From: an uncultured Nitrospiraceae bacterium
GTDB taxonomy: Bacteria; Nitrospirota; Thermodesulfovibrionia; Thermodesulfovibrionales; Dissulfurispiraceae
Assembly (NCBI GenBank): GCA_903822005.1
Contig: CAIJNL010000014.1
Span: 124,001 to 188,000, forward strand
Direction of reading: 5' to 3'
DNA length: 64,000 nt
In this document: piece by piece, positions 202 through 57,029 of the stretch
Position numbering within the stretch: the stretch's first letter is position 1
Layout: every line of letters begins with the position of its first letter
The notes under the pieces: model-generated
Database searches by the model: none
What the model was told of the DNA's origin: nothing
Seen by the model: only the letters and a program-made list of their open reading frames with translations
Position numbers and translations under genes: made by a program

Positions 202-1421
202 ACCCCGGCCTCCTCATGATGCCTCGCAAATAACAGAGCAAACAACATGCTGCTTATAATGCATACTGCCGCAAACAGATGCAGTGATTCTAGCGTACCG
301 AACGCATGCGCCGCAAATCCGATCGCAGAGTTGCCGAGCGGCGCGAAACCCAGAAATACCAGGGTATAAAGACTCATCACCCTGCCCCTTAACGCGTCAG
401 ACACCGTATGCTGGATAAAACTGTTGCATACAGCAAGAAAGCTGACTATGCCCAAACCAGCAAAGAAGATAAAGAAAAGCGAGAGATAATAGTTGTGCGA
501 AAAAGAGAGTGCCATTACCGCCATCGCAAAAACATTGGCAGCAGCCGGGATAAACAGGCCCTTTAGCCCGATATCTCCCCTGAAAGCTATAAAAATAGCG
601 CCGATAAAGGAGCCCGTGCCGGCGGTCGAGACTAGCATGCTCAGCCCGGTAACGCCGGAATTCAGCACCTCCTCTGCAATGACCGGCAGCATGGTTACGT
701 AAGGGATGCCGAAGAGGCTGAAGATGGTTATCAGCGACATGATATAGAGCACCCTCTTTTCTCTTAGAACAAACCGCCATCCGTCGCCGATGCCCTCCAG
801 GAAGCCTTTTTCGTTGACTATCGTCTTTTCAACGGCCTTTATCCTGGAAAGCGCAATGACAACAGGCACAAAACTGAGCGCGTTCAGGAAAAAGCAGGCC
901 GGCATGCTCACACCCGCTATAAGAATACCTGCCATGAGAGGCCCAAGAACACGCGCACCGTTGAAGGCGGCCGAATTCAGGGCTATGGCACTGGTGATGT
1001 TCTTTCTGCCGACCAGGTCCGAAAGCAGCGCCTGCCTGGCAGGCACATCAAAAGCATTCAGCATGCCGAATAAAAAAGCGAGCACCGCGACATGCCATAC
1101 TTCGACAATGTCCAGATAAGTAAGAATGCCGAGCGTAAGCGCGGGGACTATCGAAAGAGCCTGGGTTACAAGGACAATGTTGCGCCGTGGATACCTGTCG
1201 GCGAGCGAGCCGCCTAAAAGCGTAAACAGCAGTATAGGCAAAGAGGCGCAGGATGCAACAAGGCCGAGGTAGAGCGGTGACTTGGTCAGCGAATAAACCA
1301 GCCATCCCTGCGCCACGGAATGCATCCATGTGCCAGAAAGCGAGATGACCTGCCCCAGCCAGAAGAGCCGGAAATCCCGGTTATAAAGCGCCGAAAATCT
1401 TTTTAAGTCGTTGTCAGGCAT
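198..1421 (-). CDS. MFS exporter (MFS_3 / enterobactin-exporter-like)
   Basis: A 407-residue inner-membrane protein with about 12 hydrophobic segments. The N-terminus (NRDFRLFWLGQVISLSGTWM) and the cytoplasmic loop motif GGSLADRYPRR after the second segment are typical of the MFS_3 group that includes EntS. The substrate cannot be read from sequence; export of a small molecule by proton antiport is the family expectation. I start at the ATG at 1421 rather than the TTG three bases upstream. No Shine-Dalgarno is visible, and a TATACT box lies 8 nt upstream of the ATG (1430-1435), so the message may be leaderless. It overlaps tsaB by 4 nt. Confidence 0.85.
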   Translation of the reverse strand: MPDNDLKRFSALYNRDFRLFWLGQVISLSGTWMHSVAQGWLVYSLTKSPLYLGLVASCASLPILLFTLLGGSLADRYPRRNIVLVTQALSIVPALTLGILTYLDIVEVWHVAVLAFLFGMLNAFDVPARQALLSDLVGRKNITSAIALNSAAFNGARVLGPLMAGILIAGVSMPACFFLNALSFVPVVIALSRIKAVEKTIVNEKGFLEGIGDGWRFVLREKRVLYIMSLITIFSLFGIPYVTMLPVIAEEVLNSGVTGLSMLVSTAGTGSFIGAIFIAFRGDIGLKGLFIPAAANVFAMAVMALSFSHNYYLSLFFIFFAGLGIVSFLAVCNSFIQHTVSDALRGRVMSLYTLVFLGFAPLGNSAIGFAAHAFGTLESLHLFAAVCIISSMLFALLFARHHEEAGV

Positions 1422-1513
1422 CAATTATGAGTATAACGCATGGTCACGGGAAAAGAGTACGCTGTGATAAGACATATACTGACAGCTCATTTTGGTAAAA
1501 AAAGCCCCCGGAA

Positions 1514-1543
1514 TTGACAAAACCCTGCGAGGTATAGTTTAAT
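1514..1543 (+). promoter_or_regulatory. sigma-70 promoter for the tRNA-Val/tRNA-Asp pair
   Basis: A perfect -35 box TTGACA (1514-1519) is followed after 18 nt by TTTAAT (1538-1543), five of six matches to the -10 consensus. Transcription would begin near 1550, a few bases before tRNA-Val. No other promoter is apparent between the two tRNAs, which are 33 nt apart, so they are probably co-transcribed. Confidence 0.65.
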
Positions 1544-1557
1544 AAATGCTCGTTTTC

Positions 1558-1633
1558 GGGCGGTTAGCTCAGCTGGGAGAGCGCAGCCCTTACAAGGCTG
1601 ATGTCACAGGTTCGATCCCTGTACCGCCTACCA
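1558..1633 (+). tRNA. tRNA-Val (anticodon UAC)
   Basis: A full cloverleaf can be drawn: acceptor GGGCGGT/ACCGCCT (first pair G-U), D stem GCTC/GAGC, anticodon stem CAGCC/GGCTG with loop CTTACAA, and T stem ACAGG/CCTGT with loop TTCGATC. The anticodon TAC reads valine GUA/GUG codons. The CCA end is encoded. Confidence 0.97.
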
Positions 1634-1666
1634 TTTATTTTAGTTTATGAAGTGCAATACCGCTTT

Positions 1667-1743
1667 GGGGCGGTAGTTCAGCTGGTTAGAACGCATGCCT
1701 GTCACGCATGAGGTCGCGGGTTCGAGTCCCGTCCGCCCCGCCA
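1667..1743 (+). tRNA. tRNA-Asp (anticodon GUC)
   Basis: The acceptor GGGGCGG/CCGCCCC, D stem GTTC/GAAC, and anticodon stem CATGC/GCATG with loop CTGTCAC (anticodon GTC) give a clear tRNA-Asp with encoded CCA. Its last bases from 1726 are repeated at 8169-8192, so this gene appears to have served as an integration target. Confidence 0.97.
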
Positions 1744-1749
1744 TTTCTC
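1726..1749 (+). repeat. direct repeat at tRNA-Asp 3' end (attL-like)
   Basis: GTCCCGTCCGCCCCGC (1726-1741) plus the following eight bases recur at 8169-8192 with 22 of 24 positions identical. The repeat starts inside the T arm and runs past CCA, the usual crossover segment of tyrosine-integrase elements that target tRNA 3' ends. The intact tRNA lies on this side. Confidence 0.65.
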
Positions 1750-1870
1750 ACATCCCCCTTTATTATCCCATTGTGAATCTGAGTGTGGTAGAATGTCTTG
1801 GGCAGTTTTCTATCCTCATCAATGCCCGACATTCGATCCACAATAGATAACTTGACATTGGTTATAGCAC

Positions 1871-1904
1871 TTGATCAATCATATATAATATATAAGATAA
1901 GGAG
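1871..1904 (+). promoter_or_regulatory. AT-rich leader with TATAAT, TTGATCAA palindrome and SD
   Basis: Upstream of the catabolic operon are an 8-bp palindrome TTGATCAA (1871-1878), a TATAAT box (1884-1889) and an AAGGAG Shine-Dalgarno (1899-1904), 9 nt before the ATG. A TTGACA at 1852-1857 is 26 nt from the TATAAT, too far for a standard promoter. This suggests an activator-dependent or operator-controlled promoter; no regulator gene is nearby. Confidence 0.35.
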
Positions 1905-1913
1905 ATCAGAATA

Positions 1914-2777
1914 ATGACGAGTCATGCAGCCGAATTGGAGCAGTTGTTATCGCAGGCAATTGAGTTTCACGTTCACACAGGTCCCGACGGCAAAACGCCC
2001 AGGAAAGCTGATGTATTTGAAGTCCTTCGCGACGCCAGACAAGCGGGTATGCGTGCCGTGGTACTAAAAAATAAAAGTTGCGGCACTGGTGCCATTGCTC
2101 AACTGGCGAATAAATATGCGGATGGAGCACTCGCAATTGGAAGCATAACCCTGGATGTGAGCGTGGGTGGATTTAATCCTGAAGCAGTCGAAATTGAGGC
2201 CGCCATGGGTTCCAAAGTAGTCTGGATGCCGACTTATTCAGCGCTCAACGCCCCTAAAAAGAGCGCTATTGATTCCTTGCGACATCGCCTCACAGTCATG
2301 GACGAAAAAGGCAATCTTCTTCCTGAAGTACTGAATGTTCTGGAGGTTGTCAAAAAATATGATATGGTCCTGGCAACAGGTCATCTGTCCCGGGAAGAAA
2401 TCTTTAAACTGATTGAGACTGCTGTCGGCCTCGGTCACAAGAAAGTTGTTCTTACACATCCTCTTACAAGAAATGTAAATACGCGCATGGAAATTGCCGA
2501 CCAGCTTACCTTATCAAACATGGGGGCTTTTATTGAACATACATGGGTTGCGACAATGCCTAAACATGACCAGATCCCGGCAGGCGATTTCACCCGGGCC
2601 ATTAGGGCGGTCGGAGTGGATAAGTGCGTTATCGGATCGGACTTTGGACAGGTCCATAACCCCCTGCCCATTGAGGGATTTCGCATGATGCTTGCAACAC
2701 TGCTTGACGAAGGGTTCAGCGTCGCGGAACTTGAACAGATGATCAAGAAAAACCCGGCATATCTGCTGGGCTTATAG
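1914..2777 (+). CDS. DUF6282-type amidohydrolase-superfamily protein
   Basis: A 287-residue cytoplasmic protein with the HVH motif of the metal-dependent hydrolase superfamily at His19/His21 (EFHVHTGPDGK). Other likely ligands are Lys52, His157 (ATGH), His182 (THP) and Asp243 (GSDFG). The fold and spacing fit a TIM-barrel amidohydrolase, and I recognise the DUF6282 pattern. No reaction is established for that family. It is the first gene of a plus-strand operon with two aconitase-family dehydratases and an MFS carrier, which suggests hydrolysis of an amide, lactone or C-C bond in a carboxylic-acid catabolic route. The start is supported by an AAGGAG box 9 nt upstream. Confidence 0.75.
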   Translation: MTSHAAELEQLLSQAIEFHVHTGPDGKTPRKADVFEVLRDARQAGMRAVVLKNKSCGTGAIAQLANKYADGALAIGSITLDVSVGGFNPEAVEIEAAMGSKVVWMPTYSALNAPKKSAIDSLRHRLTVMDEKGNLLPEVLNVLEVVKKYDMVLATGHLSREEIFKLIETAVGLGHKKVVLTHPLTRNVNTRMEIADQLTLSNMGAFIEHTWVATMPKHDQIPAGDFTRAIRAVGVDKCVIGSDFGQVHNPLPIEGFRMMLATLLDEGFSVAELEQMIKKNPAYLLGL

Positions 2778-2824
2778 AGCACTTGTCCCTGATAGACATG
2801 TGAGAAAAGAGAGGTGGAACAGCT

Positions 2825-4084
2825 TTGGGATTGACTCTTACTGAAAAGATATTGGCGAAAGCTGCGGGCACAGACAGGGTAGAACCAGGGGAAATCATCA
2901 ACGCGAGAGTCGATGCGGTTATCGGCCATGATATTTCAACCGCAGCCTTTCGGGAATTGGTGAAAATGAAAGTAACCAAGGTCTTTGACCGCAACAAAGT
3001 ATTCTTTACCGTTGACCATTTTGCGCCCAGCCCTTCATTGGATGCCGCGGCCCAGCTGAAGGATTTGTATGCTTTCATCGACCAATATGAAATAAAAAAT
3101 TGGTTCGAACTCGGGCGGGGAGGCATTTGCCATGCCATTTTCCCTGAGCAAGGCCTGATCACGCCAAGTACAGTGGTCCTGGGTGCCGATTCTCATACAT
3201 GCACCTATGGCGCATTGGGGACATTCGCAACAGGAATGGGTGTTACCGACATTGCCTCCGCCATGGCCCTGGGAGAAGTTTGGCTGAAAGTCCCGGCTTC
3301 AATGAAAATCGAATTTGACGGCGTTGTGGGAGACATGATAACCGGCAAAGACCTGATTCTGCATGTCATTGGAAACATAGGGGTGGATGGAGCGCTTTAC
3401 CAGGCCATGGAGTTTTGCGGCAGCGCAATCCGCGGCCTGCCCATCGATGACCGTTTTACAATCTGTAACATGGCCATCGAAGCCGGAGCAAAAAATGGAA
3501 TCATAGCAGTCGATCATGTGACCACCGATTATCTCTTGAATAGGGCCAAGGAGTCGTATCAGTCTTTAGCAAGTGACGATACTGCCCAGTACGATAGAAA
3601 TTTTAGATGGGATGCGTCTGCAATCACGCCGCTTGTCGCCCAGCCGGATTCTCCGGCTAATGTTGCGCCTGCCGCCGATTTGCAGAAAATCAGGGTAAAC
3701 CAGGTTGTTATCGGATCATGCACCAACGGCAGGATTACAGATATGAGGGCCGCAGCCAGGATTCTGAAAGGACAAAAGGTGGCCCGGGGAGTAAGGCTGC
3801 TGATATTTCCGGCAACTCAGGAAATCTATCTGCAGGCCATGAGAGAAGGCCTGATCGAAACGTTTGTTGAGGCCGGAGCAGTGATATCTCCTCCCATATG
3901 CGGACCATGTCTTGGTGCTCATATGGGACTATTGGCAGCTGGTGAAGTGGCGATTTCTACTACTAACCGCAACTTTGTCGGGCGGATGGGGCATAGAGAC
4001 AGCCGCGTTTATCTGTCATCTCCGTTTACCGCAGCCGCCTCTGCCGTCGCAGGATACATTGTAAGCCCAAGGGAGGTGTGCTAA
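2825..4084 (+). CDS. aconitase-family dehydratase, large subunit (LeuC-like)
   Basis: A 419-residue iron-sulfur hydro-lyase large subunit. The 4Fe-4S cluster cysteines are Cys299 (GSCTNG), Cys359 and Cys362 (CGPC), and the ADSHTCTYGA motif near residue 121 is conserved across the family. The length matches bacterial LeuC-2, homoaconitase and 2,3-dimethylmalate dehydratase large subunits. These share the reaction of shifting a hydroxyl via a dehydrated intermediate. The start is TTG at 2825 with AGGTGG seven bases upstream. The small subunit follows after one base. There is no leuA or leuB beside it, and the neighbours are hydrolases and a carrier, so a catabolic 2-alkylmalate or tricarboxylate substrate is more likely than leucine synthesis; isopropylmalate cannot be excluded. 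Confidence 0.85.
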   Translation: MGLTLTEKILAKAAGTDRVEPGEIINARVDAVIGHDISTAAFRELVKMKVTKVFDRNKVFFTVDHFAPSPSLDAAAQLKDLYAFIDQYEIKNWFELGRGGICHAIFPEQGLITPSTVVLGADSHTCTYGALGTFATGMGVTDIASAMALGEVWLKVPASMKIEFDGVVGDMITGKDLILHVIGNIGVDGALYQAMEFCGSAIRGLPIDDRFTICNMAIEAGAKNGIIAVDHVTTDYLLNRAKESYQSLASDDTAQYDRNFRWDASAITPLVAQPDSPANVAPAADLQKIRVNQVVIGSCTNGRITDMRAAARILKGQKVARGVRLLIFPATQEIYLQAMREGLIETFVEAGAVISPPICGPCLGAHMGLLAAGEVAISTTNRNFVGRMGHRDSRVYLSSPFTAAASAVAGYIVSPREVC

Positions 4085-4085
4085 T

Positions 4086-4583
4086 ATGCAGGGGAAAGCC
4101 TGGAGATTTGAGAATGATGTGAATACAGATGCCATTATCCCCGGCAGATTCCTTGCTGACTGGAACAAGAATCCGGGAAAGTTGAAAGATCATTGCTTTA
4201 TCGATCTGCTTCCGGATTTCTCCAGGTCTGTTGAGAAGGGAGACTATATAGTCGCCGGAACAAACTTTGGCTGCGGTTCTTCCCGGGAGGCGGCACCTAT
4301 TGCCATCAAGATGTCCGGTGTCAATGTCATCATTGCCGGATCTTTCGCCCGTATTTTCTACCGCAACTGCATTAATGTCGGAGTGCTTGCACTGGAATCC
4401 GCCGAAGCTTCCGCAAAAGTGCGCCAGGGGGATATTTTGAACGTGGATATAATGACAGGGGTGATCAACAATGTCACTACTGGTCAGGCTTATTCATTTA
4501 AGCCTGTGCCGCCATTTCTCAAGGAAATACTTGATCTTGGCGGACTGGCGCCGTATGTTCAAAATAAACTGAACATTAGTTAA
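4086..4583 (+). CDS. aconitase-family dehydratase, small subunit (LeuD-like)
   Basis: A 165-residue swivel-domain subunit that completes the active site of the large subunit encoded one base upstream. The N-terminal DVNTDAIIPGRF and the NFGCGSSRE motif (about residues 60-68) bind the substrate carboxylates in LeuD and DmdB proteins. Length is normal for the 160-170-residue subfamily found in archaea and anaerobes. Coupled translation with the large subunit is expected from the spacing. Substrate specificity is undetermined. Confidence 0.85.
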   Translation: MQGKAWRFENDVNTDAIIPGRFLADWNKNPGKLKDHCFIDLLPDFSRSVEKGDYIVAGTNFGCGSSREAAPIAIKMSGVNVIIAGSFARIFYRNCINVGVLALESAEASAKVRQGDILNVDIMTGVINNVTTGQAYSFKPVPPFLKEILDLGGLAPYVQNKLNIS

Positions 4584-4684
4584 GCAGACCGGTTTAATGC
4601 TGTATTGATGCTTTTCGAACGAGGGTCGGCTTCCAGAAGGGGTGCCCGATTCGATGAGTATGCAGTGGAGAGGGGAATACAGGC

Positions 4685-6616
4685 ATGGGTGATCATCTTT
4701 TCGCCAAAATAACAAAATCACATCTGGTATCCGGTGAGATGAAGCCTGGCTCCGAAGTGGGCATTTCGATAGACCAGACGCTGACCCAGGATGCCCTTGG
4801 GACAATGGCCTATCTCCAATTCGAGGCCATGGGGATACCGAAAGTAAAAACAAAATTGTCAGTCTCATATGTAGACCACTTAATGCTTCAGGAAGGCTTT
4901 GAAAATGCCGATGATCATAAATATCTTCAAACAGTCGCCGCCAAATATGGGGTCTATTTTTCAAAACCGGGTAACGGAATTTGTCATCAGGTACATCTGG
5001 AGCGATTCAGCCGTCCCGGCTGGACTCTCATTGGCAGTGACAGCCATACACCCACCGCTGGCGCCCTTGGCATGCTTGCCATTGGGGCTGGAGGCCTGGA
5101 TGTAGCTGTTGCCATGGGAGGCGGCGCGTTCCATTTTATATACCCGAAAGTGGTGCGCGTTAACCTTTCAGGACATCTCAGGCCCTGGTCAACAGCCAAA
5201 GATATCATTTTGGCAGTATTAAAAAAACTTACTACCAAAGGCAACACAGGCGTAGTACTGGAATATGGCGGGTCGGGGATAAAGACGCTCACCATACCGG
5301 AAAGGGCAACAATCGCAAATATGGGCGCCGAAACCGGGGTTACCACCTCTATCTTTCCGAGTGATGAGATCTCGCGAAACTTTTTGATTGCCCAGGGGCG
5401 TGAAGCTGACTGGATTGATTTGTCTCCGGATGCTGATGCCATATATGACAATATTCTTGAGTTCAATCTGGATGATATTGAGCCTAATGTCGCCCTGCCT
5501 CATTCGCCGGAAAACGTTACCCGTGTAAGAGACGCTGGAGAAATAAAGGTTGACCAGGTCATGATCGGCAGCTGCACTAACGCATCGTACCGCGATCTGA
5601 TGATTGTGGCACATATGCTGAAAGGGCGCCGGGTTGACCCGGGAGTCAGCTGCGGCATCGTTGCAGGCACCAGGCAGGTATTGCGGATGATCAACGATGA
5701 CGGAGCGCTGGGAGATATTATTGACTCCGGAGCACGGATTCTTGAATCATCCTGCGGGTTCTGTGTCGGCTATGGACAATCGCCGCAGTCGGCTGCTGTC
5801 TCGGTCAGGACCAATAACAGGAACTTTGAAGGCAGGAGTGGCACGAAAAACGCGAAGGTGTATTTAGTCAGTCCCGAGGTTGCTGCCGCAACCGCCCTGA
5901 CCGGAAAATTAACCGACCCCCGCGACCTTGGCATCGAATATCCGGAAATCGCTGTACCCAGTGCCTATCATGTCAATGATGATATGATCATTAAGCCTCC
6001 TGATAATCCGGGGCCTGTGTTCCGGGGACCGAACATTGGAGACCCGCCCCGCAACTCGCCAATGCCTGATAATCTCCTGGCGCGTGTGGCCATCAAAGTT
6101 GGGGACAAAATTACAACTGACCATATAATACCTGCCGGAGCAGCCGGAAGATACCGCTCCAATATACCTCAATCCAGTAATTTCGTGTTTCGCGATGTTG
6201 ATCCGGCATTTGTTCAGCGCTGCAAGGATAATCAGAACAGCAATGTAGGATCGGCCATTATTGCCGGAGCAAGCTACGGGCAGGGTTCTTCCCGTGAACA
6301 TGCCGCAATATGCCCGATGTATCTCGGCGTAAAGTTGATTATTGCCAAAAGCTATGAACGGATACATATGGCCAATCTGGTAAATTTCGGCATCCTGCCT
6401 CTCCTGTTCTGTGATGAAACTGATTATGACAGGCTCAATATTCCGGATGAGTTGACGGGATTCAATCTCAGCGAGGCCTTGTCACTGCCTGTTTCTGTCA
6501 TTGAAAATGCCACTCAAGGTTACCGGTTCTCGGTCAGGCACACTTTGACAGGCCGGCAGATTTCGATCATATTGAAAGGCGGACTTTTAAACTGGGTTGG
6601 GGGAGAGGCAAAATAA
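4685..6616 (+). CDS. aconitate hydratase, Aquifex-type single-chain
   Basis: A 643-residue protein in which the cluster-binding domains (Cys297 in GSCTNAS, Cys357 and Cys360 in SCGFC) are fused to a C-terminal swivel domain (GQGSSREH near residue 535). The length matches the compact Aquifex-type putative aconitase family rather than the roughly 900-residue AcnA or AcnB. The family converts citrate to isocitrate through cis-aconitate, but here the gene sits with a separate LeuCD-like dehydratase, so it may act on a related tricarboxylate. The ATG is preceded by GAGAGGGG at a somewhat long spacing. The gap of about 100 bases from the LeuD-like gene carries no other feature I can see. Confidence 0.82.
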   Translation: MGDHLFAKITKSHLVSGEMKPGSEVGISIDQTLTQDALGTMAYLQFEAMGIPKVKTKLSVSYVDHLMLQEGFENADDHKYLQTVAAKYGVYFSKPGNGICHQVHLERFSRPGWTLIGSDSHTPTAGALGMLAIGAGGLDVAVAMGGGAFHFIYPKVVRVNLSGHLRPWSTAKDIILAVLKKLTTKGNTGVVLEYGGSGIKTLTIPERATIANMGAETGVTTSIFPSDEISRNFLIAQGREADWIDLSPDADAIYDNILEFNLDDIEPNVALPHSPENVTRVRDAGEIKVDQVMIGSCTNASYRDLMIVAHMLKGRRVDPGVSCGIVAGTRQVLRMINDDGALGDIIDSGARILESSCGFCVGYGQSPQSAAVSVRTNNRNFEGRSGTKNAKVYLVSPEVAAATALTGKLTDPRDLGIEYPEIAVPSAYHVNDDMIIKPPDNPGPVFRGPNIGDPPRNSPMPDNLLARVAIKVGDKITTDHIIPAGAAGRYRSNIPQSSNFVFRDVDPAFVQRCKDNQNSNVGSAIIAGASYGQGSSREHAAICPMYLGVKLIIAKSYERIHMANLVNFGILPLLFCDETDYDRLNIPDELTGFNLSEALSLPVSVIENATQGYRFSVRHTLTGRQISIILKGGLLNWVGGEAK

Positions 6617-6661
6617 GCCATACCAGTTCAAAGATATAAACACACAGGGGGGAACATTATT

Positions 6662-7957
6662 ATGGATCGCACTGCTTCGTTGCCTGAAGACACTTCTCAA
6701 AAACCGACCAGAATTCGCGTCGGGCTGGTAGTAATCCTGTTATTCACATTGCTGGTTGCATATCTCGACAGGGTGAATATCGCGGTGATCATGGCTGATT
6801 CACATTTTCTGCAGGAACTGGGCCTGGTCAACAATCCTGTGGGACAGGGTTTTTTGATGACCTTTTTTCTGATCGCCTATGGACTTGGAAATGTGTTGCT
6901 CAGCCCGCTGGGAGACAAACTCGGTCCGCGCAAAGCGATGAGTATCGCACTAATCTCCTGGACCATTCCGGTAATGATGGGAGGCCTGGCAAGGTCGCTG
7001 CCGGTGCTATATGCTTCGCGTTTCATCCTTGGGGCCGGAGAGGCGATGCACTACCCGATGCAGATCAAATTCGTGAAGAACTGGTTCCCATTGCAGGAGC
7101 GTGGAAAAGCCAATTCAGTCTGGGTAATGGGCACAATGATAGGCCCGGCCATCGCAATGCCTGTCTTTGCCTTTATTGTTGCGGCCTACGACTGGAGGGC
7201 AACTTTCTGGGTATGCGCCGCATTGGGTATAATCATTCTTCCGATAATATGGTTTTGCACAACTGACCGGCCAAGTCAGCACAAATGGGTTAACAAAAAA
7301 GAGCTGGAACACATTGAGTCCGGCCAGCAGGCTGAAAGCCAGCGTCAGGAACAGGATGTCAAAACAGGGAATGTCTGGCAAAACTACCTGCTGCTTGCGA
7401 CGAACCTCGATTTCATCTGCTCCACTGTGGCTTATTGGTCATCTGTCAGTATGTGGTGGGGCATAATGTCGTGGCTTCCCCAGTACCTGAAAGTTGCCCG
7501 CGGCTTTTCCTGGGCCGAGATGGGCTTCTTCTCTTCCCTGCCCTATCTGCTGGGAATTTTCGGGATAATGTTCGCAGGATATTCTGCCGACCGGATTAAA
7601 AGATCGGCCCCGATAAACTGCCTTGGGCTTGGCGGGTGCGCATTTTTCATATTACTCGGGGCCACAGCCAGTGACAGTTATATGAGTGCTATCTTCCTCG
7701 CCATCAGCATGTTCTTTAAAGGCGTATCACAACCAATGGCATGGACTGTTCTTCAGGCATTTATGCCCTCGAAGATCATAGGGCAGGCCGCCGGATTGCA
7801 AAACGGCTCATCGCAGCTTATCGGCTCACTTTCGCCGATTGTCATTGGCTATTTGATATCGATTACCGGCACTTATACTGCAGGGTTGATGTATCTGGTT
7901 GTTTTCGGCTTTATAGGAGCTACCAGCGGTTTATATCTGGTATGGAGAAAGTACTAG
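6662..7957 (+). CDS. MFS carrier, anion:cation symporter (ACS) type
   Basis: A 431-residue inner-membrane protein with about 12 predicted segments. The first segment ends in AYLDRVNIAV, a hallmark of the ACS group that takes up hexuronates, galactonate, phthalate and other organic anions by proton symport. LGDKLGPRKA after segment 2 is the MFS loop motif. It is the last gene of the catabolic operon, 45 nt after the aconitase gene, with a GGGGGG Shine-Dalgarno. The position suggests that it imports the carboxylate processed by the upstream enzymes. Specificity cannot be read. Confidence 0.85.
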   Translation: MDRTASLPEDTSQKPTRIRVGLVVILLFTLLVAYLDRVNIAVIMADSHFLQELGLVNNPVGQGFLMTFFLIAYGLGNVLLSPLGDKLGPRKAMSIALISWTIPVMMGGLARSLPVLYASRFILGAGEAMHYPMQIKFVKNWFPLQERGKANSVWVMGTMIGPAIAMPVFAFIVAAYDWRATFWVCAALGIIILPIIWFCTTDRPSQHKWVNKKELEHIESGQQAESQRQEQDVKTGNVWQNYLLLATNLDFICSTVAYWSSVSMWWGIMSWLPQYLKVARGFSWAEMGFFSSLPYLLGIFGIMFAGYSADRIKRSAPINCLGLGGCAFFILLGATASDSYMSAIFLAISMFFKGVSQPMAWTVLQAFMPSKIIGQAAGLQNGSSQLIGSLSPIVIGYLISITGTYTAGLMYLVVFGFIGATSGLYLVWRKY

Positions 7958-9675: not shown

Positions 9676-10044
9676 TATCAAAGGCCCCTTTAATTAGTTT
9701 TTATACGACGGCTGGTGCTTTTCTTTGGTCAACCTTGTTTCTTCTTAAAAAGTACAGCCGTTTAAAACACTTCTTATTTTATCGAAAAGATTTTTTTTGA
9801 AAAATCGGCCAGGGTCACTCCAGTCTTGAGCGATCGCAAATGAAAGATATTAAATTTCACAATCTCGGCCTTCCGCCGCACGATAGCATGCCCCGGAGAT
9901 AACTCCAAATGCCATTATACTTAATAGGCCGCATAATATCCAATTTCGAAGCGGGCTGAATTAAGGTAGCCTTCGCTGCCTGTTATAATGATAGATAGCA
10001 TGAGATACACAGGAGATATGAATCAATACTCTGGAGGTAAAAAT
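9676..10044. other. intergenic region with one promoter-like site
   Basis: A 369-base gap between divergent genes. A TATAAT box at 9984-9989, with a weak TTAAGG 17 nt upstream, could drive the exported-peptide gene; GGAGGT at 10033-10038 is that gene's ribosome-binding site. I see no ORF or strong hairpin in the rest. Confidence 0.4.
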
Positions 10045-20127: not shown

Positions 20128-20277
20128 GTTTAAAATAAGGCCCACCCGCCAGCCACAGCAAAAATGTACAGTCTATTTCTTAGCATATCGATTTTTAATA
20201 AGTCAACCAAGTCGTTAAGGAAATGAACCATAAGACAGGAAACCGACGCTGCAAATATTCCGTCCGGGTGTCCGGAA

Positions 20278-20660
20278 GCGGCAACCGCCTCTTGTCGTCA
20301 TATCCCCCCACTTCGGCAATATGAGCTCATTACTGTATTCAGTGGCTCCGAATCTCCCCTCGCCAAATAAGCTCAGCGTACTCTCAACCATAAAGTTTCA
20401 AAAAGAAATAGTGCCGATTTTCTGATTAGCAACTCAACGACCGCGGCGAGTCTTCGATTCTATCGCCACCGAATACAGACTGTTATTACACACGCGTTTA
20501 GCCTGAAAGTAAGACGGCCAGGGCGACTGGCTCGACGTCTCGGTGTGACCTTCCTTGCGAGCCTGAACGGTAGATAGTAACCTGCGCCTTTCAGATAATG
20601 CGGCTGTTAATTTGAAGTGATCTTATTCAGCGAGACAAGAGGCAGTTGCCCTTGCCGCCC
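20278..20660 (+). repeat. dispersed intergenic element, copy A (core 20513-20659)
   Basis: The 614-base gap between fabG and panC holds no gene but carries this element. The core (147 bp) starts GACGGCCAGGGCGACTGG and ends TTGCCCTTGCCGCC; its ends are imperfect inverted repeats of about 30 bases. About 215 bp upstream of the core is also shared with copy B (AAATAAGCTCAG, CTTCGATTCTATCGCCAC). A further inverted end copy, GCGGCAACCGCCTCTTGTCG, lies at 20278-20297 and bounds the left side. The right end is 21 nt beyond the panC stop. Confidence 0.8.
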
Positions 20661-35389: not shown

Positions 35390-35750
35390 CATATCCCGAT
35401 ATTTCCGGCAATATGCGGGCTAAGCTGCCTTCTATGGCTCCGAATCTTGCCTCGCCAAATAAGCTCAGTACACTCTGTGTAATACAGTCTCAAAAAGAAA
35501 CAGTGCCACATATCTGATTAGCACCTCAACGGCCGCGGCGTGTCTTCGATTCTATCGCCACAGAATACAGCCTGCTATTACACGCACATCAAGTATGAGA
35601 TTGAGACGGCAATGGCGGCTGACTCGATGTCTCGGTGTGACCTTCCTTGCGATTCTAAACGGTAGATAGTATGTGCGTCTTTAAGATCATGCGGTTGTTT
35701 CGATGAACTGATCTTATTCAGCGAGACAAGAGGCAGCTGTCCTTGCCGTC
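35390..35750 (+). repeat. dispersed intergenic element, copy B (core 35605-35750)
   Basis: Homologous to copy A over its whole length. Shared blocks include CTCGCCAAATAAGCTCAG, CTTCGATTCTATCGCCAC, GTCTCGGTGTGACCTTCC and CAGCGAGACAAGAGGCAG. The core begins GACGGCAATGGCGGCTGA and ends CTGTCCTTGCCGTC. Pairing of the two ends is kept through base changes relative to copies A and C. Confidence 0.8.
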
Positions 35751-38171: not shown

Positions 38172-38655
38172 GACAGCAAGGTCAACTGCACTTGTCTTCA
38201 CTGACAAGCAAATCAGCACTCCTGTATCTTTACGCCGTCAGCGGCTGCCGAAAAGAATCCATGCCCATTATGGGACGGCAAGGACAACCGCCTCTTGTCT
38301 CGCTGAATAAGACCACTTTATCTTAACAACCGCATTATCTGAAAAACGCATAATACTGTCTTCTGTATAGAATCGCAAGGAAGGTCACACCGAGACATCG
38401 AGTCGGCTGCCCTCGCCGTCCCTATCCGCACACCATGGATTCTATTTGATAGCCGACGGCGGTGGCCGGATCGAGAGCGCAGCGTCGCCGTTGGGGCCTC
38501 ACATATGGAAATAAATTTGAGCGTTTTGCCGAAGCCGGCGTTTATTGTGGTTACCTACAGTGATTCAGCAAGCCGAGATACGGTTACCGTTGACGGCATA
38601 AAAGCACTAACTTATAGGCCAGATATTGAGACACGCTGCTGTTGCCCTTGCCGTC
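38172..38655 (-). repeat. dispersed intergenic element, copy C (core 38274-38420)
   Basis: The 572-base gap between the MBL and tsaD genes holds a 147-bp core in inverse orientation relative to copies A and B: GGACGGCAAGGACAACCGCC on the left and CCCTCGCCGTCC on the right. Outer partial ends also occur at 38172-38199 (GACAGCAAGGTCAACTGC) and 38628-38655 (CTGTTGCCCTTGCCGTC), facing each other like the ends of a larger element. The rest of the gap has no gene I can support. Confidence 0.75.
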
Positions 38656-56735: not shown

Positions 56736-56900
56736 ATACACCTCCCTTCAAAGAATAAGTAAACTTAAGAATTCCGAGAGTATACTGAACCTTCTCCTCC
56801 TCCCGTATTTCTAAAATATTCATACTATAACATGACTCAATATGCTTATAAAATCGTCCTGTTTCAGGGAAAGTCTTACTGAAATGGCATGTATAATTTG

Positions 56901-57029
56901 CCCTATGTCCAGGCGTGTCTTTCCCTAAGACTGTGTACGTTTGATTGTGCCGTGCGGCTTTTTGATAATGCGGTTGTTAAGGCGATATGTTCTTATTCGG
57001 AGAGACAAGAGGCAGATGTCCTTGTCGGC
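56901..57029 (+). repeat. dispersed intergenic element, copy D (diverged, 5' end lost)
   Basis: GATAATGCGGTTGTTAAGG and GAGACAAGAGGCAGATGTCC match the distal part of copies A-C; CCTATGTCCAGGCGTGTCTT is a decayed version of their left part. The first ~15 bases of the core are missing. The right end is 4 nt from the stop of the SRPBCC gene. Confidence 0.7.

Follow-up and report, generated by a model that had tools for sequence, protein, structure and literature searches.

We demonstrated that the genome of an uncultured Nitrospiraceae bacterium carries a dispersed, strictly intergenic, and lineage-specific element built of three related hairpin units (I, II, and III), and that each unit is under selection as a folded single strand, hence on opposite strands of the DNA for the two partners of a dimer. 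The element was followed from a window of 64,000 nucleotides (contig C14:124001-188000) through the whole genome analysed (3.23 Mb in 48 contigs). The initial annotation of the window had proposed a selected hairpin, RNA or DNA, rather than simple decay. Copies spread genome-wide and covariation at the level of the helix support the hairpin, and the choice between RNA and DNA narrows to a single strand folded in the unit sense, which RNA and ssDNA both fit.

Three related units and their sites

From its outer to its inner side, the hairpin of one unit comprises a variable outer stem of about 17 bp; a conserved internal loop accompanied by an A.G-type mismatch, likewise conserved; an inner stem of 6-8 bp that is almost invariant (GUCUCG/CGAGAC in unit I); and an apical part of about 84 nt with conserved short motifs, for which no consensus fold was found (z 0.1, -1.1, 1.0). 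In unit I, the A.G-type mismatch 18/132 is unpaired in 37 of the 38 copies, and 31/120 in 33 of 38. Pairing ends at the unit border. Indeed, no excess of complementarity was seen in the copy-specific flanks, apart from two additional pairs in unit III (at site A, its stem continues 2 bp further outward), and we thus rejected an insertion into palindromes, in which pairing would extend into these flanks. A conserved unpaired foot, GT[AG]G or CGTC, is absent: the ends of the units vary and are paired, and conservation does not extend to the flanks.

Four copies (A to D) had been annotated in the window. Repeat search, BLAST, and the covariance model bear out A, B, and C, at the positions given then, as copies of one unit (Table 1), and D, described as truncated (56901-57029), is such a copy, with a somewhat longer span in the full model. 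The inverted partner of copy C, a unit II, had been missed. The approximately 215 bp that A and B were said to share further to the left are shared indeed, but they are a second, diverged unit in inverse orientation (unit III), noted before only as extra sequence. Likewise, the copy coordinates hold, but the start set at 20278 takes in a remnant of about 25 bp of a further unit I. Outside unit III, sites A and B have another small palindromic stretch in common (window 20300-20325 and 35390-35416; CATATCCC...GGCAATATG). The genes neighboring the window sites, which include those of a short-chain dehydrogenase, a pantoate-beta-alanine ligase, a histidine kinase, a DUF2400 protein, a beta-CASP nuclease, a TsaD/Kae1-family protein, a multihaem cytochrome, and an AHSA1 protein, have nothing in common.

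Table 1. Units, spacers, and related elements (positions without prefix are those of the window)
Feature	Location	Strand	Evidence or remark
Site A, remnant of a further unit I, 3' terminal part	20276..20300	-	GACAAGAGGCGGTTG, a 15-base exact match inside a 25-bp alignment to the unit I 3' end
Site A, inner unit, subfamily III	20334..20476	-	profile search, alignment A3, model R3 152.8 bits
Site A, spacer between head-to-head units	20477..20512	.	36 bp
Site A, unit I (copy A)	20513..20659	+	147-nt hairpin; BLAST, alignment, covariance model 155.2 bits
Site B, unit III	35426..35568	-	profile search, alignment A3, model 148.7 bits
Site B, spacer	35569..35604	.	36 bp
Site B, unit I (copy B)	35605..35750	+	BLAST, alignment, covariance model 156.5 bits
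Site C, unit I (copy C)	38274..38420	-	top-scoring copy; BLAST, alignment, covariance model 169 bits
Site C, spacer	38421..38451	.	31 bp
Site C, inverted partner, unit II	38452..38597	+	profile search, alignment A2, model 143.6 bits
Site D, lone degenerate unit I	56883..57029	+	5' arm decayed; repeat search, profile search, model 87 bits
Triplet I-, II+, I-	C16:95752-96232		mixes head-to-head and tail-to-tail
Triplet I-, III+, I-	C1:35246-35718		mixes head-to-head and tail-to-tail
Unrelated element of genome G002, copies	L114:5524-5696, L119:16944-17122, L121:16936-17135, L123:8826-9002 and 9702-9895, L128:19053-19223		

When 20278-20660 was used as the query, BLAST matched 44 places in the own genome, mostly 70-86% identical, and the covariance model gave 83 genome matches at E<=0.1, a number that includes the opposite-strand scores of the same near-palindromic places. 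By profile search, the units (about 143-147 nt) fall into three related subfamilies, i.e., unit I, with a 147-bp core and 38 good copies genome-wide (alignment A1); unit II, with 15 copies (A2); and unit III, with 12 (A3). The covariance models of the three return the same genome-wide census and a few degenerate relatives. Far from being confined to the window, the units occupy 48 sites genome-wide, with two units at 24 of them, three at 3, and one at 21. The copies are about 75% identical; unit I copies reach 87% at most, and one pair of unit II reaches 91%.

At two-unit sites, unit I is nearly always joined, inverted, to II or III. Most of these sites are head-to-head, with the left ends inside and a spacer of 22-37 bp, and a few are tail-to-tail. 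The inner spacers of the head-to-head sites are weakly conserved, so that dimers look inherited as dimers. A dimer is made of two independent folded units and not of one long hairpin, because the inverted unit I and its partner have their functional strands on opposite strands of the locus. Two miniature forms look as if the middle of a dimer had been deleted: the outer ends of I and II are joined at C15:21410-21493, and the left ends of a I-II dimer at C16:82053-82158.

All 48 clusters lie outside the genes predicted with a simple codon-usage caller made for this analysis, though about 84% of the sequence examined is coding. Flanking genes are convergent at 13 sites, divergent at 10, and in tandem at 25, and no bias of unit orientation relative to gene strand or GC skew was found. 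Copies separated by less than 20 kb resemble each other more than other copies do (0.78 vs 0.75, permutation p<0.001), which suggests that copying into neighboring sites took place in the past.

Covariation and the strand that folds

The kept pairing that had been described at pairs 7, 11, 14, and 16 of copies A, B, and C reads in the alignment as stated, and a larger copy set was available to examine covariation. We counted the cells in which both sides of a pair had changed and pairing was retained, and compared them with a tree-based null in which the substitutions of each column were redistributed over the tree (1000 simulations). The 38 copies of unit I contain 61 compensated cells against 20.5 +/- 6.1 simulated, a value reached in 0/1000 simulations; a shuffle control (3'-letter) gave 62 vs 22.9 (0/500), and the covariation exceeds a slid-register control too. 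Subfamily II shows the same tendency (29 cells vs 7.6 +/- 3.1, 0/1000), as does subfamily III (12 vs 6.0, reached in 15/1000). When all column pairs were compared in an R-scape-like search, none individually came out at E<0.05, the best of unit I being the predicted pair 3-147 (E=0.6). The support from covariation, expected by the initial annotation, is thus for the helix as a whole.

Which strand folds can be read from the mispairs that are tolerated. A single folded strand tolerates G-U and not A-C, whereas double-stranded DNA or arm-to-arm correction should give G-U and A-C equally, because a G-T on one strand is an A-C on the other. Parsimony changes from Watson-Crick to G-U outnumber those to A-C by 52:12 in unit I, 18:3 in II, and 8:1 in III, and the equivalent changes at unpaired columns are without strand bias (111:128, 65:52, and 33:47, respectively). 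The share of G-U is 0.84, 0.88, and 0.88, vs 0.76, 0.69, and 0.68 in simulations; since the make-up of the columns already yields a high simulated share, the event counts are the cleaner statistic. The excess of G-U over A-C, without bias at unpaired positions, supports the unit-sense strand as the one that folds, as RNA or ssDNA; cruciforms of double-stranded DNA and template-switch repair fit poorly.

The tree of unit I is star-like, and its tip branches carry 4.98 of the 5.94 substitutions/site. On these terminal branches, changes to G-U number 45.5 vs 11 to A-C, and the bias to compensated changes is found on the tips too, as inferred by parsimony on this star-like, poorly resolved tree, where unsampled source copies could account for some of the tip changes. 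Single units are under the same constraint as the others (GU:AC 21:5), and so are the 17 units whose neighbor genes are both antisense (37:4). The constraint thus belongs to the unit, and not to a partner or to read-through from annotated genes; a dependence on a read-through UTR was rejected on this ground. Taken together, this argues, without being a proof, for selection on the unit as such and not just on ancestral masters, on the dimer, or on sense read-through from annotated genes. Present-day mobility is unsupported, because near-identical copies of unit I are missing (see the maximum identities above), and mobility alone would not explain the constraint on terminal branches, unless copies derive from unsampled sources.

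Distribution and search for a partner enzyme

Model R1 found no match in 30 other genomes of the family, and a model search with stricter filters gave none in 175 other genomes of the order. Viral contigs, plasmids, and phages gave no match, nor did Rfam contain a matching family. When 84,980 species genomes were scanned for exact 18-base matches, six hits were returned; they match over only about 20 bases and are attributed to chance. A 30-bp match in a relative (G020) looks like chance as well, that genome having no model match; it sits just upstream of a sequence that, by reading only, resembles the start of a biotin synthase gene. In a genome of the same genus, the flanking genes are rearranged and about 70% identical, and a comparison with empty sites was uninformative.

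No target-site duplications were detected, flush direct repeats being as frequent as in shuffled flanks (0.96 vs 0.96). The own assembly contains no reverse transcriptase (PF00078), and the six matches to the integron integrase model (TIGR02249) are all below the cut-off. Three matches to Y1 transposases were found, two intact genes (IS200/RAYT-like) and one 83-aa fragment, and none of them has a hairpin unit nearby. We rejected these transposases as the partner: the two intact genes (L111:1183-1869 in C26 and L112:1471-2316 in C42) are flanked by unrelated inverted repeats, each by its own (GGGACAGCGCCCTATTT and a AGGTCTTGCAATA-type 36-mer). As for a parent insertion sequence with matching ends, the model matches of the own genome were listed and the genes inspected at part of the loci, and relatives, plasmids, phages, and viral contigs gave no match.

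Another genome of the same family, G002, has an unrelated dispersed near-palindromic element of its own, of about 170-200 bp, with a stem like GGAGTCRGACGAGGCATAGTATGT and variable inner hairpins, present in at least 6 good copies in the 400 kb sampled (Table 1). Within this bacterial family, palindromic repeat families restricted to single lineages may be common. The same genome also contains arrays of short CGTT/TATAGCG/CATCGCG-type repeats of about 90-120 bp, near-palindromic on both strands (L122, approximately 297-7754, and L114:19644-19761).

Origin and role of the hairpins

REP dimers and BIMEs occur as head-to-head heterodimers, tail-to-tail forms, alternating clusters, and singletons, with GT pairs in their stems (PMC3733652, PMC2817692), and TnpA-REP enzymes act on single-stranded DNA (PMC6006769). 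The element resembles REPs, REPINs, and BIMEs in its dispersed, almost only intergenic hairpins arranged as inverted dimers with short spacers, clusters, and singletons (PMC3733652, PMC2817692, PMC3116915), and in its tolerance of G-T stem pairs and its restriction to one lineage. On the other hand, its units measure 143-147 nt, against 20-40 bp for the imperfect palindrome of a REP; they have an interrupted stem of about 27 bp and a loop of about 84 nt, where REPs have stems of 5-13 bp and loops of 2-20 nt; the base of the outer stem varies and lacks a conserved GTAG/CGTC foot; the two intact RAYT-like genes of the genome carry unrelated ends; and the copies, about 75% identical, include no close pairs. 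Because of this size, loop, and foot, and of the missing RAYT match, we do not file the element as a REP, only as one working like it.

Our best explanation, to which we give about an even chance, is an oversized REP-dimer/BIME-like repeat, lineage-specific and mobile-derived, whose fold would be recognized on its own strand. Past copying would have dispersed the units, in part to sites close by, with no enzyme of their own involved, and a trans-acting protein would recognize each hairpin on the strand in which it folds, most likely in the form of ssDNA exposed in replication or transposition, with transcribed RNA as the alternative. Copying would have been scarce recently and yet the fold would be constrained copy by copy, which suggests that a unit retains some local function or continues to serve as a substrate. 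Against the REP/BIME-like explanation stand the partner enzyme, which was not found, the target-site duplications, which were not seen, and the lack of orientation bias to gene strand or GC skew, unlike some ssDNA elements. More tentatively, the roughly 48 dispersed sites could be hairpin loci using both strands that derive from a mobile element and have become individually functional in this one lineage, in which each unit would be a selected single-strand structure (RNA or ssDNA) recognized by some protein, the inverted I-II/III dimer serving both strands.

It is also possible, although we would not expect it, that the units act as structured RNA in transcripts arising from read-through or pervasive transcription, where a sense unit would fold and influence the stability, processing, or termination of the RNA; an inverted dimer would ensure one sense unit in either direction of transcription. 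The tolerance of G-U on the unit-sense strand and the covariation above the phylogenetic null speak for such an RNA, and about half of the comparable intergenic repeats of Bacillus cereus occur in mRNAs (PMC3446304). However, the 17 units flanked only by antisense genes are equally constrained, the sites lie in all gene arrangements, single copies have no conserved upstream sequence that could hold a promoter, and Rfam gives no match. Unit I of site C contains a promoter-like match (TTGCGA-17-TATTAT), whose conservation is not apparent by eye in the alignment. The repeats bcr1-bcr18 of the Bacillus cereus group are likewise lineage-specific and intergenic, some having been described as MITE-like and others as carrying a conserved RNA structure (PMC3446304); set against them by description and not by sequence, our element differs in its paired I-II/III heterodimer architecture. 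BOX, RUP, and SPRITE of Streptococcus pneumoniae are similarly intergenic, predicted to fold when transcribed, and apparently dormant as mobile elements (PMC3049150), but BOX is modular (A-B-C) in one orientation, and not made of two inverted units that fold independently.

A classical MITE, with the terminal inverted repeats of a DDE-type insertion sequence recognized as double-stranded DNA and the pairing of its ends as a by-product, is unlikely. Correia (CREE), ERIC/RU, and similar MITEs have about 100-170 bp and inverted ends able to pair. This size range and these pairable ends are common to both (for small mobile sequences, see PMC2229807), as would be the intergenic dispersal and the likeness of neighboring copies. 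On the contrary, strand-asymmetric wobble and compensatory changes are unexpected under recognition of double-stranded DNA, target-site duplications are missing, and searches of the 175 other genomes of the order and of plasmids, phages, and viral contigs turned up nothing with matching ends. The strand-specific compensatory evolution and the conserved internal loop also set our element apart from Correia and ERIC/RU.

Very improbable, to our mind, is an absence of any selection, with template switching during replication (quasi-palindrome correction) keeping the arms complementary, a mechanism that exists and makes multi-base compensatory changes (PMC8794818). Such correction would be expected to remove the conserved internal mismatches as well, and yet 18/132 and 31/120 stay unpaired in most copies, and it gives no reason for an excess of G-U over A-C that is at least fourfold. 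Integron attC sites and retron msr/msd are likewise variable paired-end hairpins used as single strands, but copies of folded recombination sites of such a system are hardly conceivable here: no integron integrase passes the cut-off, the reverse transcriptase domain is absent from the assembly, and the attC core site GTTRRRY is not at the variable unit ends, so that, the needed enzymes being absent from a near-complete genome, this origin is largely refuted.

It has long been asked if the palindromic repeats dispersed in genomes are junk, parasites, or structures with a function. In the present genome, compensatory evolution across dozens of copies, together with a strand test that opposes G-U to A-C, shows that a particular folded strand is selected, single copies included, and whatever the orientation of the genes. 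This test could be extended to other palindromic families, in which it would separate a function as RNA or ssDNA from the recognition of double-stranded DNA or the mutational repair of palindromes.
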